Notes under the pieces: model-generated
The model's database searches: none
Seen by the model: only the letters and a program-made list of their open reading frames with translations
What the model was told of the DNA's origin: nothing
From: Hondaea fermentalgiana
Taxonomy: Eukaryota > Sar > Bigyra > Thraustochytrida > Thraustochytriidae
Direction: 5' to 3'
Assembly: GCA_014084085.1 (NCBI GenBank)
Contig: NPFB01000151.1
Span: forward strand, 1-27,169
DNA: 27,169 nt
Made by a program: the position numbers and the translations under genes
Part shown: one piece after another, positions 7,065-20,548 of the stretch
Layout: each line of letters starts with the position of its first letter
Numbering within the stretch: position 1 is the first letter of the stretch

Positions 7065-10000
7065 TCAATTGCGACGGATAACGTGCGCGAAATCGTTGAG
7101 CGTCGAAGTCCACGTCGACAACGCCTCCTGGATGAGCTCCTTAAAACGCTCCGCGGCCTCCTCTTCGGAGGCGTCGAGCATGAGACGATCGCGTACCCAA
7201 TCAATGTCCGACTCGCGCTGCAACTCGGGCATCCCGCTCGAAAGCATGAGCGAAAAAAGAGTAATGAGCAAACTCGCATTACGCCGCAAAATGTTGTACG
7301 CTTGGCCGCAAAGCGCCTCGAACTCCTTAAACAAAGGACGATCCTGCGGACCCAGGACCGTAGCCATCGCGTTCGAAAACAGAAAAGGACCACGCTCTCG
7401 CTTGATGCCCATCTTCGACTTGAAATTGCCCAAAAAGTGCCCAAAGTCAATGTGAAACAGCTTACCATCACGCGTGAGCATAATGTTGTCCGCGTGCCGG
7501 TCGCCAATACCCAGCACATACGTCGCAACGCAGTACCCCGCACACGAGCACTTAAAGTTCTGCTCTGTCACACGCCGCGCATAGCCCGAATTCTGCAGAT
7601 ACCGTTTCAGCTTCTTGTCGTCAAACACCTTGACGGCCTTGCTCAGCTTGCCTCCCGTCCGGCCCGCCGTGATGCGTGCAATCGTCTCCGCATTCGGCAC
7701 AATCTGAATCATACCGCGCTGATCACCCGTCGACACAACGCTGTACAAGGACAGCCGCAAATCCAAGCCCTCCGTCTTCCACAGCTTGTCCATCGTGCGC
7801 AAAACCTGTAGCGTAAGCTGATCCTGGCGCAAATCATCGCCAGACTTGTACAACACAGACACGGGGGGCGCACCGGGACGAGCCTGCAAACACTCGAGCA
7901 GTAGCGGCGCCTTCTTCGAGTTCATCACGCGGCACTTTTTCACATCCAGCCCGCGAAAGAATAGATACGGCGAAAGCGGCAGCTGAAACTCCTCCGGGAG
8001 CGTCGCGGACGCCAGCTGCTGCTTCAAGAACGCCGTGCGTCGGTTCGGTTTCTCCTCCTTTACCGCCGCCGCAATCGACTCCAGCTTGCTGTTCACGAAC
8101 TGCTGGTGGCCCAGGTCCTGGCGAACACGGCAGTGCCGCAGATACGTGTCCAACAGCGCGCCGTAGCGGTCAGCAATGTAATCCTCGTGCATCTCGGCCT
8201 TGAGCAGCCAAAACAGACGGTGCCCAATCAGCGATGGTGTGCGCAGCGCACGTCGCAGCAGAAAACGAGAGAGCGCAGAGTCCACAAAACGCTCGAACTT
8301 GAGCACTTGCACGAGCTGCAGCATGATCTCCTCCAAACTCACGTCAGAAAGCGGCTCCAGCGCAGATACGGCCAGGGCGCGCACTTTCGGATCAGGATGC
8401 TTGAAGTCCAGCAACTGCAGGGCCACCATCGGGTCTGGCATCGCCCATTCGTTCAACATGCGATACGCCAGCTGCATCTGCGAGCGCTTCGACCAGTCGA
8501 TCGCCTGCAAAAACTTTGGCAGCGACTTTGGGTCCTCCATGAGTTCACGCCGCATCTGCAATATCAACTCTTTTTGCTCCTTGCTCAGCGGATGCAACGG
8601 GTCTCGGTGAATAAAAGTGCTCAGTTCCGCGCGCATAAGTCGATACAGGTTCGAACGTGGCGCCGCGTCCGACTCCTCTGCATCCCGCTGCACGTCGTCG
8701 CTCATGTAGTCACTGTAAACGACCGGCTTGCCCCGCGACGGCAGCTCGAGCTCCAAAAAGTCGACTGCGTCCTTTGCACGCGTGTTGTTGCTCAAAAGTG
8801 TCGCCACACCCGCCATGTCGGATCCCGCCTCCCCGCGAAAGAGCTTCAAACGCAAATGCCCCGACCGCATCACCTGCTCAAAATCGAAAAGAGTCAGGCC
8901 GGCCCACCCGATGGGTGTCGCCGAGCCCTCCTCGACGAGTCGCTCAATCTCCATGTGCCGCCGCCGCTGTCGCTCCCGTCGCTGTCGCTGTTGGATACGC
9001 TTGCGCACCGCTGACGTCCGTTTGACGCTGTCGCGTTCACCGCTGTTTTCCTCGTCGTCGTCCTCCTCTTCGCGCGCGTGACGGTTCTCGCGCTGACGCT
9101 GCTCTTCCTCGAGCTGCGCACGCAGCTTGGCTTGCTCGTCCTTGATGGCCTCAAACAAGTCATGCGCCTCGTCCGCCTTCGGCGAGTAGTACACGTTGAA
9201 GATCACACGAGCCGCACGAGGGAGGTTCGAGAGCTTGATGTCCAGCGTGACCTTCGAGTTGAATGGCACGATCATGTACGGCATGAGTCGCTCTGCCGTG
9301 CGCTCCAGGTATCGAGCCGGAGCCAGTGGCTGTCCTGCGTGGTAAATTGCGCACGATACGATGAACGAGTCTGAAAGAACGTGGCCCGGTAGACTCGTGC
9401 CGAGCACGCGCTTGACATTGATCGTCAGCGAGTCTTCAAGCTGCCAGATCGGGAGATAGTGCTCGAGGGAAAAGTCATTCAGTTGCTCGGCGCGCTTTTG
9501 TGCGAGCGTCGCACTCATCTGCTCGCTTACAGACGCAATCACATCTTGGTCCTCCTCGGAAAAGGGCGCACCACCGCGCTTATTCAAAAGCTCAATCACT
9601 GTGATCACCGTTCCGTCATTGGTGCACACCGGGCAGCACAGCACGTTGCGCGTCACGAATCCCGAGTCTTCCGACTCTACCTCGCCGTAAAAATGCTCAT
9701 TCTTGTGCACGTGTGGCACATTCACAATCTTGTTAATCGCCGCACAATGGCCCGCAATGCCCTGGCCAATGTCCAGCTTGACTGTTCTCTTTCGCGCCTT
9801 GCCCCCCGCGCCACTGCCAAACTGCATTTCTAACTGACGCTTCTCCCAGTCCACCGTGTACAAGGAAACGCGTTCGCAGTTGAAGATCTGAAAGAGGACC
9901 TTACGCATGCGCGCGACGGTGTCTGCCACGTTCAGCTCGGGGCTAAAGGCCGTCATGAGCAGCATGAGAGCTTCCGCCACACGCCGCTCTCTCTCTGTGT

Positions 10001-11210
10001 TGGCGCGCCGCTTCAGCGAGAGCAGGACATCAAAGTTGCCCACGTGCTTGGTGAAGCTTGCGACCTCGAGACTCATGTGGGACAGCTGCGTGTTGGACGT
10101 GGTCATGAGCTCTTCAGGCTTGATGACCTGACGAAAGACGTCGCTCGAGAGCGTGTACGTGGACACGTGCGTCAGCGCCATCACCGTCGCTGTCCGGGTC
10201 TTATCCTCGAGAAGCGCCTTCTCGCCGAAAAAGTCGCCCGTGCTCAGCTCGTTGACGAGCTTGCCAAAGGCGTTGTCCTCGGGCAGAATACCTTGGTCCT
10301 CTGTCCACGCACCAGCAACATAGACGCGGACTTTGCCCTCGACAATCAGGTAAAAGAGCTCGCCCTTGGTGTCCTGCCGCACAATGACCTCGTTGGGCAC
10401 AAAGGTTTGCTTGCGCATCGACTTGCGCACCAGCTCAAATTGCTCATTATCTAGGTTGTGAAAGAGCGGCACCGACTTGAGAAAGGAGTCGACCGTGGGG
10501 GCGGTCGTCCGGATGGAACTGCGAAAGGCCACGCGCCCAAACGAGTTCTCCAAATACCGTGTGACTCCCTTTTCGCGTGCGCGAGGTTGCGCCCTGTTCG
10601 AGGGCAGGCGCTCGCTCTCGCCTCGCAAATGGGCCAGACGTTGCGAACGCGCCTCTACGGTTTCCTCAATCTGGTTCTCCATCATTTCCATGCGCGAGAG
10701 CTCGTCCGAGACGTCGTGAATACGGCTCTGCAGCAGACGGGCGTACCGTTCCACATCCTCGTGTTCCTGCGAAGAGCGAACCTGCTCGATACGGTAATCG
10801 GCGCCACGTGGCTTACGCCACACCGCCATGCCTGGCGAATGCCAGAATGCCATGTTACGAGTCGGATCGAACGCCGGCACAAAGCCCATGTAGTCTTTGC
10901 GCTCTCCGCTCATGCCGAGCGCATCGTGCGAGTAGGGATGGATTGCAAGGTGTCGAAAGTCTTCCTCTTCGTAATCAGGGGGCTCGGCATATGTGCTCTG
11001 CTGTCGCAGCAGGTTAAAGTAGTAGACGCGATCAGATGCTGCATCGCGCGCCTTGTGCCACTTGTCCGCAGGCAGCTTCCACACGCTCAGGCCCGTCACC
11101 ACGTTGTGGTAAAACTGCAGGCCTGTTCTCTCGTCCGTGTGCGGCTGCCAGACTCCGCCGCCAAGCCCGTCGTCGGCGCACGGCGAGTTGGCCTGAAAAC
11201 TGCTTTCCAT
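7065..11210 (-). CDS. Phosphoinositide 3-kinase fused to WW-like, cyclic-nucleotide-binding and GAF domains
   Basis: A 1381-aa single exon starting at ATG 11210; an in-frame ATG at 11351 would add 47 Arg-rich residues. The usual class I catalytic subunit is about 1070 aa. Domains from Met1: a WW-like repeat at 19-49 (GVWQP, FYHN, VWKLP) and two degenerate ones at 50-79 and about 107-134; coiled coil at about 150-195; CNB at 237-365 with FGEKALL (328-334) and RTATV (339-343); GAF at 408-575 with an NK...F...D signature (N543, K544, F550, D554); a PI3K-type C2 at 589-823 split by a charged insert at 677-760; PIK helical domain at about 868-1053; kinase domain at about 1078-1353. Catalytic features are K1122 in LYKSGDDLRQD, D1237-R-H...N1242, and DFG at D1255. 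The activation loop (GNFKSKMGIKRERGPF) has the basic residues typical of class I enzymes using PI(4,5)P2. No Ras- or adaptor-binding domain is seen. It probably makes 3-phosphoinositides under cyclic-nucleotide control. Confidence 0.93.
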   Translation of the reverse strand: MESSFQANSPCADDGLGGGVWQPHTDERTGLQFYHNVVTGLSVWKLPADKWHKARDAASDRVYYFNLLRQQSTYAEPPDYEEEDFRHLAIHPYSHDALGMSGERKDYMGFVPAFDPTRNMAFWHSPGMAVWRKPRGADYRIEQVRSSQEHEDVERYARLLQSRIHDVSDELSRMEMMENQIEETVEARSQRLAHLRGESERLPSNRAQPRAREKGVTRYLENSFGRVAFRSSIRTTAPTVDSFLKSVPLFHNLDNEQFELVRKSMRKQTFVPNEVIVRQDTKGELFYLIVEGKVRVYVAGAWTEDQGILPEDNAFGKLVNELSTGDFFGEKALLEDKTRTATVMALTHVSTYTLSSDVFRQVIKPEELMTTSNTQLSHMSLEVASFTKHVGNFDVLLSLKRRANTERERRVAEALMLLMTAFSPELNVADTVARMRKVLFQIFNCERVSLYTVDWEKRQLEMQFGSGAGGKARKRTVKLDIGQGIAGHCAAINKIVNVPHVHKNEHFYGEVESEDSGFVTRNVLCCPVCTNDGTVITVIELLNKRGGAPFSEEDQDVIASVSEQMSATLAQKRAEQLNDFSLEHYLPIWQLEDSLTINVKRVLGTSLPGHVLSDSFIVSCAIYHAGQPLAPARYLERTAERLMPYMIVPFNSKVTLDIKLSNLPRAARVIFNVYYSPKADEAHDLFEAIKDEQAKLRAQLEEEQRQRENRHAREEEDDDEENSGERDSVKRTSAVRKRIQQRQRRERQRRRHMEIERLVEEGSATPIGWAGLTLFDFEQVMRSGHLRLKLFRGEAGSDMAGVATLLSNNTRAKDAVDFLELELPSRGKPVVYSDYMSDDVQRDAEESDAAPRSNLYRLMRAELSTFIHRDPLHPLSKEQKELILQMRRELMEDPKSLPKFLQAIDWSKRSQMQLAYRMLNEWAMPDPMVALQLLDFKHPDPKVRALAVSALEPLSDVSLEEIMLQLVQVLKFERFVDSALSRFLLRRALRTPSLIGHRLFWLLKAEMHEDYIADRYGALLDTYLRHCRVRQDLGHQQFVNSKLESIAAAVKEEKPNRRTAFLKQQLASATLPEEFQLPLSPYLFFRGLDVKKCRVMNSKKAPLLLECLQARPGAPPVSVLYKSGDDLRQDQLTLQVLRTMDKLWKTEGLDLRLSLYSVVSTGDQRGMIQIVPNAETIARITAGRTGGKLSKAVKVFDDKKLKRYLQNSGYARRVTEQNFKCSCAGYCVATYVLGIGDRHADNIMLTRDGKLFHIDFGHFLGNFKSKMGIKRERGPFLFSNAMATVLGPQDRPLFKEFEALCGQAYNILRRNASLLITLFSLMLSSGMPELQRESDIDWVRDRLMLDASEEEAAERFKELIQEALSTWTSTLNDFAHVIRRN

Positions 11211-12369
11211 CGTCTTCCCGCGGCCGTGCGTCCGCTGCGACTCTCCCTTCGCCGCGCCGCGGTCCTCGTCCCGCCTCTCGCGCGCGCGTGCTCGTGCGAG
11301 TCTTCTTCGTGCGTCTCTCTCCCTGCACGCGCCGACAGATCGATCAATCAATCAGTCAATGTCCGAATGACGAGCTCCCGAGCCCGGAAAGTACGCCGGT
11401 CCTCTCTCCGCGGCGAGCGCCCGCCGGCGGCCTTCGCGGACGGACGGCGCGCCGCCGGGCCCTGCTCTCTCGCCCGCGCGCGCGCTGTGCGTGCGTGCGT
11501 GCGTGCGAGACGGAGCGGGATTGCTTGCTCGCTCGCTGGCTTGCTGTGCGCGACGGGGTTGTGAACGCGCACTAGCACAAGTGGGCGAGTCAAGGACCCA
11601 AGTCGGCTTTAGGACGCGCTGCAAGTGGACAGCGGGGTGTGCACAAGTGGAGGAATGGGCAAACGTGGAGTGCTTCCCTGTCACTTCGGGCGAACGAAGA
11701 CCAGGCGCGCGCGTGCCTTGCCGCATTGGCCGACTCCGTCAGTCAGTCACTGCTGCGGCTGGCAGCAGCAAGAGTCGGGATCTACGAGGCGACTTGTTGT
11801 ATTCGTTGTTGAGGAGCATTGCTAGGCTTGAGCTTAATGAGTATTGGAAAGAAGGAGACACGGAAAGGTGAAAAAAAATAACACCCAAGGAAAACGCGAA
11901 GAATTACGTTGTTCACAGTGATCTCTCTTTAACCCCAGACAACGCTTGTTAAAGGGGGTATTACTTGGCTTTCACAACATTTCTCCTGGTGCGTATCGTA
12001 GCAAACGCAAAGAAAATAACTTTAGAACAAGCCCCATTCACTCCATCATGGCCCAAGAAAGCCCAGTGCCCCAAAATCTTAGGCAAAGAGAAGATTCACA
12101 TGGTTGGTGTGGCCCCGAAAACGAGACCAATCAAAGTCGTACCAGCAAGCAACGCAAAAAAGAACATTGGGTGATTGATGCATATGCGGGTCATCTACTA
12201 TACAATTGACCACAAAATAGACAGACTCGTGACGACTCGCCGAGTGCAGGCAGGATGGCACAGATGAACGAATGAACGAACGAATGAGTAAATGGATGGA
12301 TGAAAAATTGATCTTGCCACCTCATCACGCCGATGCCCGCTGCCTCGACTTTCGCTGAGCTGCGTGAGT
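11211..12369. other. Spacer between the kinase 5' end and the SYLF gene 3' end
   Basis: This contains the kinase 5' UTR and probable promoter (minus strand) and the SYLF 3' region. 11211-11560 is very GC-rich with CGCG runs, plus a small ATCGATCAATCAATCAG block at 11338-11356. 11870-12210 is markedly A-rich, with overlapping short open frames on both strands that match nothing I know. The decamer GCACAAGTGG occurs at 11574-11583 and 11641-11650. I see no clear TATA box or RNA gene. Confidence 0.55.
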
Positions 12370-16260: not shown

Positions 16261-16441
16261 ACTGTGCAGTCGCATGCATCACTGTGTCAGTGCTTGGCTC
16301 TCCGAGAGGCCTGTCTGCCTGATGAGGGAGTGAGTGATACTGATAAGGGCTGCCGCTGCAGCTGCTGCAGTCGAGCTTGCGTGGCTGCGTCGCGGCGAGG
16401 CGGCACGCGGGCGGGCGCGCAGATCTCTGGCGGAGGGGACG

Positions 16442-17890
16442 ATGATGGGGCACGCGGAAGACGCGGCGGCGGAGGCCGGCGCAGCGGGCCAGTACGTCGG
16501 GCTGGATGACCCGATCTTCTCCGTGCCGCTGCGCATCAGGCGCGTGAACGTCGTGGGCCTCTCGCGGACGAGGCGCAGCGTGATCGACGCGGAGCTCGCC
16601 GAGGCGCGGCGCGGGCGCACCGTGCGCGAGGTGAGCACCGGGATCATGAACGCGCTCAAATCGCTCAAGGAGGTGGACTCCTTCGAGTTCGTCGAGGTCT
16701 ACTGCGACGTGGCTGCCAACAGGCGCAAGAAACGTGGACGTCCCGGCCAGGCAGAACTCACCGACATCACCGTCAAGGTCCGCGAAAAGCGCATGGTGCA
16801 ACTCAAGGCCGAAACGTACGTCCAGGGCACCGGCTCGGAAGGCGGCGTCGAGACGGCGCTCTCACTCAATAATCCCGTCGGATACACGGAGAAAATCAAC
16901 GCCGCGTGGTCCTACGGAACCAAGAGCAGCGCCTCGGCGCGCCTCGAGGTGCAAAAGCCGCGCTTCCGTGGCCTCAACGCCTCACTCGATGTCTCTGCGT
17001 CACATAGTACCGTCAGTCGCGCCATTTACTCGTCCTATGACGAAAAGATCCAAGGAGCCCAGGCGGTCTTGCGTCACAACAGCGGACGACATGAAATTGG
17101 TGCTGGATGCTTTTGGCGCGACGTCATGCCCGTGCGGAGTGCCAGCAATCAGTACGAGTTTGCTGCCTCGGGGCTCATTTTGGCGCAGGCCAAACCCAGC
17201 CTCAAGAACAGCATCTTTTACACCTTTACGCAGGATCGCCGGGACAACCCTTTCGGGCCTTCCCGGGGTTCGTTTCTGCAGTTTCGTACCGAGTTTGCGG
17301 GCATGGGCGGTGACGCTCATTTTGCCAAAGGCGAGGTCAAGGTGCAGCAGTTCCTCCCGCTCTTTGCCGACGTCATCTCGGGCATCGCGCTTGGCTTCAC
17401 CTTTCAGGCAGGCGTATTATGCCCCCTCGCCACACCGCGTAGCGCCTCACCCGACAAGTTGCCTGGCGTCGGTGCAAGCACTCACATTTGCGATCGCTTC
17501 TGGCTCGGTGGCCCTCTCGATCTGCGTGGCTTCAACCACAAGGGCGCAGGGCCTCGCACCTCGCCGAATCGGCCTGGCGCCCAGGGCGGAGACTCTCTTG
17601 GTGGCGATGCGACCTGGCGTCTCGGTACGAACCTCACGCTTCCTTTTCCGCACGGACTCTTGCACGCTGCGGGCGTTCGTTGCCACCTTTACGCCAACGC
17701 TGGCAATCTTTGCGCATGGGAAACCTCGTTTCGCTCTCTCGTGCACGGCATGCGCGCTGCCGTGGGTGCCGGTATTGTCTTTCCTACTGCTGTTGGTCGC
17801 ATTGAGGCCAACTACTCCTTTGTGCTTCGTGCCAACTCGCGCGACCAGCAAAAGCGCTTCCAGCTAGGTCTGGGCGTTGACTTTACCTAA
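16442..17890 (+). CDS. SAM50: Sam50/Tob55-type Omp85 outer-membrane beta-barrel assembly protein
   Basis: 482 aa from ATG 16442, which I prefer because the upstream in-frame ATG (16334) adds only a low-complexity Ala/Arg segment. Sam50 is the core of the SAM complex that inserts beta-barrel proteins into the mitochondrial outer membrane. From Met1, residues 30-117 form a single POTRA domain (IRRVNVVGLSRTRRSVIDAEL...), with a basic RKKRGRPG insert at 95-102. Residues 124-482 form the 16-strand barrel. The hallmark loop-6 motif is present as WLGGPLDLRGF (354-364), with the conserved Arg at 362, followed by GAGPR. The last residues, FQLGLGVDF, fit the mitochondrial beta-signal (polar-x-G-x-x-hydrophobic-x-hydrophobic). 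Length and a single POTRA suit mitochondrial Sam50; a plastid OEP80-type protein is less likely but not excluded. It is convergent with the rhomboid gene. Confidence 0.93.
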   Translation: MMGHAEDAAAEAGAAGQYVGLDDPIFSVPLRIRRVNVVGLSRTRRSVIDAELAEARRGRTVREVSTGIMNALKSLKEVDSFEFVEVYCDVAANRRKKRGRPGQAELTDITVKVREKRMVQLKAETYVQGTGSEGGVETALSLNNPVGYTEKINAAWSYGTKSSASARLEVQKPRFRGLNASLDVSASHSTVSRAIYSSYDEKIQGAQAVLRHNSGRHEIGAGCFWRDVMPVRSASNQYEFAASGLILAQAKPSLKNSIFYTFTQDRRDNPFGPSRGSFLQFRTEFAGMGGDAHFAKGEVKVQQFLPLFADVISGIALGFTFQAGVLCPLATPRSASPDKLPGVGASTHICDRFWLGGPLDLRGFNHKGAGPRTSPNRPGAQGGDSLGGDATWRLGTNLTLPFPHGLLHAAGVRCHLYANAGNLCAWETSFRSLVHGMRAAVGAGIVFPTAVGRIEANYSFVLRANSRDQQKRFQLGLGVDFT

Positions 17891-18372: not shown

Positions 18373-19515
18373 TCAAAAATGAACGCCCCTTTCCTCAACA
18401 CCTCTGACATCATTGCGATTTTGTTCATTTGCCCTTGCTCGGACTACGCTTGCCAACAGACCGGCCACGCCGGGAGGAAGACCTCTTTGTGCCCTTGCAT
18501 CATTTGCCGATCGACTTGCGCGCGTCCCTCGATTCCTGCTACTGTCATCGTGAACCTCGCTTGGGGGGCGACTTGGTTGCCGCAAGCGCTCGGGAATGTC
18601 AATACGCATCTCCATCAAATAATCGAGCTCGTTGTCATCTACAGAGGCGCCGGCTGGGACGCCAGCCTCCAAGTCTTCGGGCGCACTAGCATTCTCATCA
18701 TGCTGCGCAGTTTCATCTTGCGCAGGTTCTCGTCTTCGGCGTTGAACTTGCGCAGCAAAGCCCTCTTCGATACGCCGCTGAGCCACAACCTCGTCGGACA
18801 CGAGGGTCGGCGGGAACCCTCTGCCAGCCACAAAGGCAACGCAGCACCATTGCAGAGCACAAAAGCTAAGATACGGCGTGATCCAGTCGAGTGCGCCAAC
18901 GACAAAAAGCACGCCTGCGATCGTTCCTATTGCGTGCACCATGGTGACTGGACGCTGCGCCACAGCCGAGTAAAAAATGACCACTAGAGCCGACACGCAC
19001 GGGGCCGGGACCCGAATAAAACTCATGACCGTGATTTGAGAGGTCTCCTCGAGGTACGGCAAGACGAAGCGCGCCATGAGCAGCGCAAAGACAACTGCCG
19101 ACATTCCGTGCCACGACCACGTCTGGCTCGGGCGCACGCCGGGTCCGCGCGAAGAATCAAAATGCGCGTACCCGAGATGCAAAGCCGCAATGATGAGAAC
19201 AAAGTGGAAGACAAGGCGAGCGTAAGCGGCGGGGCCAATCCACTGCTCCACATCTCGCGAGTCCCAGACGAGAAGTACGGACACAATGAGATGGATTGGG
19301 TCTTTGTGCGCAAGAGGCGCCACCAGCACCCTCCAGAACTCGCGCCGCTGGACCACCTCCTTATAGCTGCACGCGACCATATCTACCGAGGCGCCGAGTA
19401 CGTTGAAGAATACCGTGATTGCTATCAAAACCGTCACCAGTGCCGCTGTCACTGGCGGCAGCGAAGGTTCTGCCCACCATGGTTCCCACGCCGCGTCGTC
19501 GGCGGCCTCAAGCAT
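18373..19515 (-). CDS. Rhomboid-family intramembrane serine protease-like protein
   Basis: 380 aa from ATG 19515 (MLEAADDAAW). The frame stays open upstream to 19926, but that extension is Arg-rich and unlike protein. Six to seven hydrophobic segments lie at about 21-40, 62-84, 96-116, 135-150, 163-180, 184-203 and 207-222. Rhomboid landmarks: HKDPIHLIVS (70-79) corresponds to the TM2 H...H...N box; WHGMSAVVFALL (135-146) holds the putative nucleophile Ser139 in a G-x-S context; and HAIGTIAG (194-201) supplies the putative His194. The layout, with a long cytosolic tail (225-380), resembles ER RHBDL4-type proteins, which cleave membrane substrates for degradation. Odd points are Ser79 where the oxyanion Asn is usual, and Ala140 instead of Gly in GxSG, so activity is uncertain. 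The tail is charged and Arg/Glu-rich with no domain I recognise. Confidence 0.85.
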   Translation of the reverse strand: MLEAADDAAWEPWWAEPSLPPVTAALVTVLIAITVFFNVLGASVDMVACSYKEVVQRREFWRVLVAPLAHKDPIHLIVSVLLVWDSRDVEQWIGPAAYARLVFHFVLIIAALHLGYAHFDSSRGPGVRPSQTWSWHGMSAVVFALLMARFVLPYLEETSQITVMSFIRVPAPCVSALVVIFYSAVAQRPVTMVHAIGTIAGVLFVVGALDWITPYLSFCALQWCCVAFVAGRGFPPTLVSDEVVAQRRIEEGFAAQVQRRRREPAQDETAQHDENASAPEDLEAGVPAGASVDDNELDYLMEMRIDIPERLRQPSRPPSEVHDDSSRNRGTRASRSANDARAQRGLPPGVAGLLASVVRARANEQNRNDVRGVEERGVHF

Positions 19516-20009
19516 CTTGTGCCGCCCTCTTTCTGCGCTTGCGCCTCGCGACTTGCGCGGCGACCTAGACAGCGGCGCGCAGCACCTGCGCGCGCTTGCA
19601 CGTCTCCGCCCCTTCGAAAAGCCCTTGCGCGCGCGCGCGCGCGACCGCCCGCACGCCGCGCGCGGGCCGCTCCTCCTCGCGTAGCTCTTCTGGTGTCGTA
19701 CTATACCAGACCATGCTATACCTATACCCTCGTTCGGCGGCCCAAGGCGTGATGAGGTGGTGGCAGGAGAACGATACGATGTTGCGTTGGGCGGAGGACC
19801 TTGCCCGTGGGCTTGACAGTGAGCCCTCGCAGAAGCCTCGATGATTTTGCGCGTGGTCAACTTGCTCAGACTTTTTTCGAAGGTCATCTGCGCAACTTGT
19901 GTGTCTGGCAAGCCAACGATGCGCATCGAAGACGAAGTCGGTGACGCATTCGTGACCGACGTGTGGACGGCTACCTATTATTCTGCATGGTAAACAGCCG
20001 GATAATGTG

Positions 20010-20548
20010 GATGGTAAACACGTGCCCGCCCAAAATTCTACAGGGTTTGGCTGTTGAGGCCATCGAAACCTTTAAAAAAAACATTCGGATCAGTCCTCGC
20101 CGTTTGTTAGGGTATGAACAGCCTCTTGAAATCTGTATTGCTCTGGAAAGTGTTTGCGCGCAAACGAGCAGCTATGTTTGCTTCTTGCCAATGGCAGTCA
20201 AGCTTGCACGCAGGGCTATCCTCTGCACACACCTCGTCCTTGCAACAACGACTGATCTCTGTGAGACTACGGCAAAAGCAGGAGGATCTGGATGGTATAC
20301 ACGTGCCCGCCCAAGAATTTACAGGGCTTGGCTGTTGGGGCCATCGAAACCTTTATAAAAATCATTCGGATCAGTCCTCGCCGTTTGTTAGGGTACGAAC
20401 AGCCTCTTGAAATCTGCATTGCTCTGGAAAGTGTTTGCGCGCAAACGAGCAGCTATGTTTGCTTCTTGCCAATGGCAGTCAAGCTTGCACGCAGGGCTAT
20501 CCTCTGCACACACCTCGTCCTTGCAAGAACGACTGATCTCTATGAGAC
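20010..20548 (+). repeat. Near-tandem duplication of a 258-bp segment
   Basis: Copy A is 20010-20267 and copy B is 20291-20548, at a constant offset of 281 bases. Aligned by eye they differ at about 12 of 258 positions with no indel, roughly 95% identity. The 23-base spacer is weakly similar to the 23 bases before copy A, so the unit may be 281 bp. Sequence after copy B (CCGGATAAGTCTG) resembles the start of another unit (CCGGATAATGTGG, 19998-20010). Each copy contains CACGTG near its left end and an open frame, but several differences change the amino acid, so coding is not favoured. Confidence 0.92.

Follow-up and report, generated by a model that had tools for sequence, protein, structure and literature searches.

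Which signal controls a phosphoinositide 3-kinase (PI3K) whose catalytic core is preceded by domains of the cyclic-nucleotide kind is the question raised by a gene of the thraustochytrid Hondaea fermentalgiana, located on contig NPFB01000151.1 (C59:1-27169; this whole stretch of 27,169 nucleotides is referred to as the window, and the genome searched comprises 36.0 Mb in 238 contigs). An earlier note on this DNA claimed that a single frame encodes WW-like repeats, a cyclic-nucleotide-binding (CNB) domain, a GAF domain, a PI3K-type C2, a PIK helical domain and a PI3-kinase domain; this order was borne out (WW-WW-CNB-GAF-C2-PIK-PI3-kinase), with all matches above the curated Pfam cut-offs against which they were judged (the listing went up to E 1), including the CNB (4e-16) and the GAF domain (1.1e-10), for which the note had proposed such a search. 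From sequence comparisons we regard it as fairly probable that the product is a class I-type PI3K without a recognizable Ras-binding domain (RBD), gated by its CNB-GAF cyclic-nucleotide sensors.

The gene occupies positions 7065-11210, as stated earlier, on the minus strand (which the note had left out), and forms a single stop-free frame of 1381 codons. Counted from stop to stop, the open frame extends over 1428 codons, beginning at 11351 and closing with the stop at 7065-7067; its first ATG, at 11210, has a strong context, with A at -3 and G at +4. We consider it extremely improbable that the frame arose as a chimera during assembly or spans two transcripts, which would make CNB-GAF and PI3K separate proteins: the frame is known from the DNA sequence alone, which gives such a reading some room, but its 1381 codons run without a stop, third-position GC stays at 0.66-0.83 across 14/14 blocks (of at most 100 codons each) and passes the CNB-GAF-C2 junctions without a break, and a paralogue (C210, see below) independently has CNBs upstream of C2-PIK-kinase in one frame of 2313 codons. 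A two-transcript or chimeric origin was therefore rejected.

By sequence, the kinase core is of the class I type. The core of the PI3K superfamily is complete, with PI3K_C2, PI3Ka and PI3_PI4_kinase identified by Pfam in the expected order, and the catalytic Lys, DRH...N and DFG reported earlier were all found in the kinase domain (Lys1122 in VLYKSGDDLRQD, DRHADN at 1237-1242, DFG at 1255-1257), as was the activation loop FKSKMGIKRERGPF. A phmmer search of the PDB reported 283 sequences, of which the best 60 were all class I p110 chains (PtdIns(4,5)P2 3-kinase), with p110beta as the top match (3.7e-127); membership in class III (Vps34) was rejected on these grounds. The loop is almost identical to FKSKFGIKRERVPF of p110beta and contains the KRER-type basic box that marks class I PI3Ks. 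Because the activation loop is class I-type, the expected substrate, going by established work on such loops, is PtdIns(4,5)P2.

The regulatory parts of the known classes were not detected. Neither PI3K_rbd nor the adaptor-binding domain (ABD) was found by Pfam in the 1381-aa protein up to E 1; the space between the GAF and C2 matches measures only ~45 residues, and the GAF domain occupies the place of the RBD. Class I proper was rejected, as the RBD was not found, and so was class IA, as neither the ABD in the protein nor a p85 iSH2 in the genome (zero matches at E <= 0.001) was found. Class II was also rejected, since its C-terminal PX and C2 are missing from the matches (Pfam lists neither PX nor PF00168 C2 up to E 1, and residue 1331 of 1381 is the last one in the kinase match). 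Judged by the common core rather than by a tree, the protein probably belongs with the class I/II PI3Ks from outside Opisthokonta, to which excerpts of Philippon et al. 2015 (PMC4617754) assign one domain set, RBD-C2-PIK-kinase; compared with the enzymes described there, the core is the same, while the RBD was not found and CNB and GAF are added.

The PDB search with residues 235-385, which encompass the CNB domain, reported 128 sequences at E <= 0.001, and among the best 60 of these 128 were PCR12 (7.5e-35), cGMP-dependent protein kinase (PKG; about 1.5e-26), regulatory subunits of cAMP-dependent protein kinase (PKA) and PKG I. The E-values of PCR12 and PKG each combine several CNBs (taken singly, the best CNB of PCR12 scores 2.8e-9), and the single-CNB construct of PKG I (5j48) matches at 8.3e-12. 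We take PCR12 to be a Toxoplasma protein and the first PKG matches to come from Plasmodium. The phosphate-binding cassette GDFFGEKALLEDKTRTATV retains the canonical Glu330 and Arg339, which hold the ribose and the phosphate of the cyclic nucleotide; the pocket looks intact and the domain is a predicted nucleotide binder. Arg339 is followed by Thr, a feature of cGMP-selective PKG sites, which we regard as no more than a hint that cGMP is the ligand.

Among the 105 CNB matches of the genome, the two closest to the window CNB belong to genes with a PKG-like build, one on C3 (CNBx3-Pkinase) and one at C23:17001-21500 (L158:262-4143:+; WW-CNBx3-Pkinase), in which an N-terminal WW domain precedes the CNBs. 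This suggests that the WW-CNB order may have been acquired by domain shuffling from a C23-like protein kinase gene. Residues 44-77, largely in the second WW-like repeat, align weakly with the WW domain of the C23 kinase (E 0.005 in a single comparison). The relationship to these kinases and to the PKGs of the PDB concerns the CNB and, for C23, also the WW-first order, whereas their output is that of a protein kinase and they have three CNBs. In a CNB tree of 32 rows (30 loci out of the 105 matches, one of them from C210, plus two more C210 CNBs), none of the starred sets that comprise half of the rows or fewer contains the window CNB. A cassette pattern fits 24/30 CNB loci, a rough count, as it misses the canonical-looking L021 and L031 and accepts L049, which has an earlier Arg. 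The window's own contig also has a frame of 1684 codons (C59:113022-116960:-) in which several CNB matches lie.

The GAF domain looks to be of the cyclic-nucleotide (phosphodiesterase/cyclase) kind and, from its sequence, is likewise a predicted nucleotide binder: when compared with solved structures, 19/20 relatives are named phosphodiesterase (PDE) or adenylate cyclase. Its signature reads NKX5FX3DQ, with Gln replacing the final Glu of NKX(n)FX3DE, the NKFDE signature that is the mark of cyclic-nucleotide GAF domains. A GAF alignment scan of bacterial and archaeal genomes, used for alignment depth, identified 168 relatives, of which 80 were kept; 67 of these 80, all bacterial loci, entered the AlphaFold2 (AF2) alignment after removal of 12 by hand (several split or near-duplicate) and of one with a stop, and a loose NKFDE pattern fits 36/67. 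The AF2 model, which follows up the structure prediction proposed earlier, was made for the GAF domain and has a confident GAF fold (pLDDT 88.9), with a long C-terminal helix (model residues 158-185, i.e. 552-579 of the protein). With respect to GAF-regulated PDEs and CyaB-type cyclases, the domain is of the same kind and its signature differs by one residue; the window protein is unlike them in its single GAF and its lipid kinase output. The genome also encodes a GAF-GAF-nucleotide cyclase (C160, L074:1901-5968:+), the layout of the cyanobacterial CyaB proteins.

It is conceivable that the CNB and GAF domains act as folded scaffolds that serve dimerisation, contact with proteins or autoinhibition, or that the GAF domain binds some other small molecule, with no gating by cyclic nucleotides. 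CNBs and GAFs that bind no ligand are generally common, the fold matches of the GAF model include other GAF kinds at similar Z, and the Gln in the signature points the same way. We nonetheless consider this explanation unlikely in view of the Glu and Arg retained in the CNB cassette, the PDE or cyclase names on nearly all GAF sequence matches and the recurrence of CNBs, including one with the cassette GEIAVLASEPRSATV, in the C210 paralogue.

This paralogue was found among 16 PI3/4-kinase matches of the genome, of which four lie in frames that also have a PIK match: the window gene, C210, C28 and C143 (the last with a weak PIK match, under the cut-off). C210:128001-137500 (L071:756-7697:-) is one open frame of 2313 codons with the layout SH3x3-CNBx4-RBD-C2-PIK-kinase (CNBx4 7.3e-41, RBD 7e-6). 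It is class I-like (p110beta 1.7e-120; p110 beta or alpha accounts for 37/37 PDB rows at E <= 1e-115) and 45% identical to the window protein over PIK-kinase (237/525, BLASTP), with no significant BLASTP alignment between the C2 domains. Its CNB cassettes include a canonical (GEIAVLASEPRSATV), an altered (GEAAFLRGHPRAET) and a degenerate one (GESIALDQGVTTPATY). Both enzymes join CNB to a class I-type core; C210 differs in having SH3 in the place of WW, CNB stretches to the number of four and an RBD, and in its lack of a GAF. C28 is Vps34-like (14/14 PDB rows are of the Vps34 type, best 3.3e-112) and has neither a KRER-type activation loop nor a CNB match. Hence CNBs occur in each of the two class I-type kinases found, and none was detected in the class III gene. 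The single-protein CNB-PI3K module claimed earlier thus has the layout proposed for it, but the pairing is not unique, as C210 repeats it in a different build; with CNB matches so common in the genome, it might have arisen twice.

These observations also bear on the idea of an otherwise ordinary PI3K whose N-terminal domains only localise it (WW docking, CNB-GAF as a tether), with activity set by access to the substrate. The two WW stretches would fit, as would the RBD that was not found, which leaves no obvious Ras input; yet this idea explains neither why two domains of the cyclic-nucleotide kind follow one another nor why each class I-type kinase found has CNBs, and we consider it very unlikely.

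With the CNB cassette intact, the GAF domain of the PDE/cyclase kind and CNBs in C210, the case for a cyclic-nucleotide input is stronger than first argued, and it is plausible that cAMP or cGMP directly controls 3-phosphoinositide production. Under the CNB-GAF gating that we favour, the ligand-free CNB-GAF module, which may be dimerised through its GAF, would keep the C2-PIK-kinase core either inactive or away from the membrane; cGMP or cAMP would bind to the CNB cassette, the GAF pocket or both; binding would shift the C-terminal helix of the GAF domain, which leads toward C2; and the freed core would convert PtdIns(4,5)P2 to PIP3, while the tandem WW domains may add docking to proline-rich partners. 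Ligand binding, the sign of regulation and dimerisation are inferred, and so is the product of the lipid kinase, in this case from its activation loop.

With 21 cyclase-domain, 12 PDEase_I and 4 PTEN_C2 matches (counted as matches, not genes), the genome appears to encode enzymes that make and degrade both messengers. Two loci combine cyclase and PDEase_I matches in same-strand open frames of the same length, C91:570349-577764:- (2646 aa) and C176:26818-32796:+ (2334 aa), and are probable cyclase-PDE fusion proteins. More generally, it is possible, and we propose it tentatively, that in one lineage of eukaryotes cAMP or cGMP is the primary allosteric activator of CNB-bearing class I-type PI3Ks, comprising at least two differently built enzymes (the window protein adding a PDE-type GAF where the Ras-binding domain would be), and replaces the Ras and adaptor inputs of animals. 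How class I/II kinases are controlled outside Opisthokonta would have one concrete and testable answer in a PI3K that carries sensors of the cyclic-nucleotide kind itself. If the proposal is true, two messenger systems usually linked via intermediates are joined in one molecule, which would also be a natural basis for a nucleotide-switched PI3K tool.

The class I p110 enzymes (alpha, beta, delta, gamma) share with the window protein the C2-PIK-kinase order, the catalytic motifs and the basic KRER activation loop, and differ from it by their ABD and RBD, neither of which was found in it, by its WW, CNB and GAF, and by the charged insert in its C2. Fusion of signalling domains in one protein has been described for the oomycete "bigrams" GPCR-PIPK, GPCR-AC and GPCR-PDE (PMC5784254), which resemble the window protein in this respect and differ in the domains involved; the term "PI3K" is absent from that paper. 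In a table of PX-associated domains (PMC2837644), cNMP_binding and PI3K stand in different rows, and their sharing of one protein is not stated. A term search of Brown and Auger 2011 (PMC3024228) found no cyclic nucleotide, cNMP or GAF. No CNB-PI3K protein occurs in the titles and abstract openings of the papers listed (eukaryote protein databases lay outside this search), which agrees, within the same scope, with the earlier statement that no described family with this domain order is known. Related proteomes may well contain the CNB-GAF-PI3K architecture, perhaps already annotated. No relative was confirmed in viral contigs or, with the single CNB-GAF sequence as query, in bacterial and archaeal genome contigs; a eukaryotic gene is unlikely to turn up in either collection.

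Table. Location of the PI3K gene and its domains and motifs in the window.
Feature	Position in window	Strand	Evidence
Whole coding frame, 1381 aa	7065..11210	-	ATG to stop
WW domain 1 (residues 21-47)	11070..11150	-	Pfam WW 2.7e-9, best of 2 stretches
WW-like repeat 2 (~residues 51-78, limits by eye)	10977..11060	-	Pfam counts two WW stretches, places one
CNB (residues 268-364)	10119..10409	-	Pfam cNMP_binding 4e-16; PDB matches PCR12, PKG, PKA regulatory subunits
Phosphate-binding cassette GDFFGEKALLEDKTRTATV (residues 325-343; Glu330, Arg339, Thr next)	10182..10238	-	Translation, PDB alignment
GAF domain (residues 431-568)	9507..9920	-	Pfam 1.1e-10; PDB CyaB-type cyclase, PDE2A/6/10/5; AF2 pLDDT 88.9
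NKX5FX3D(Q) GAF signature (residues 543-555)	9546..9584	-	Motif reading
PI3K_C2, first half (residues 614-682)	9165..9371	-	Pfam 5.3e-13, best of 2 stretches
Charged insert in C2 (~residues 683-758, limits approximate)	8937..9164	-	Translation; between first C2 stretch and residue 765
C2, second half and linker (~residues 765-857, limits approximate)	8640..8918	-	p110beta alignment resumes at 765
PIK helical domain, PI3Ka (residues 858-1028)	8127..8639	-	Pfam 4.8e-50
PI3/4-kinase catalytic domain (residues 1117-1331)	7218..7862	-	Pfam PI3_PI4_kinase 5.1e-55

The charged insert that splits the C2 domain is ~75 residues long, with an acidic part before a basic one, and might act as a loop for membrane contact or regulation. 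Pfam also registers a second C2 stretch, whose position it does not report.

The Rfam search of the window reported zero matches. Five neighbouring frames in the window show no functional link to the PI3K gene: three are without a Pfam match, one (16334-17890, plus strand) encodes an Omp85 domain (1.2e-46) and one (18373-19926, minus strand) a rhomboid domain (8e-8). A tandem repeat with a 281-bp unit (~1.9 copies, 95% matches) is located at 20008-20548.

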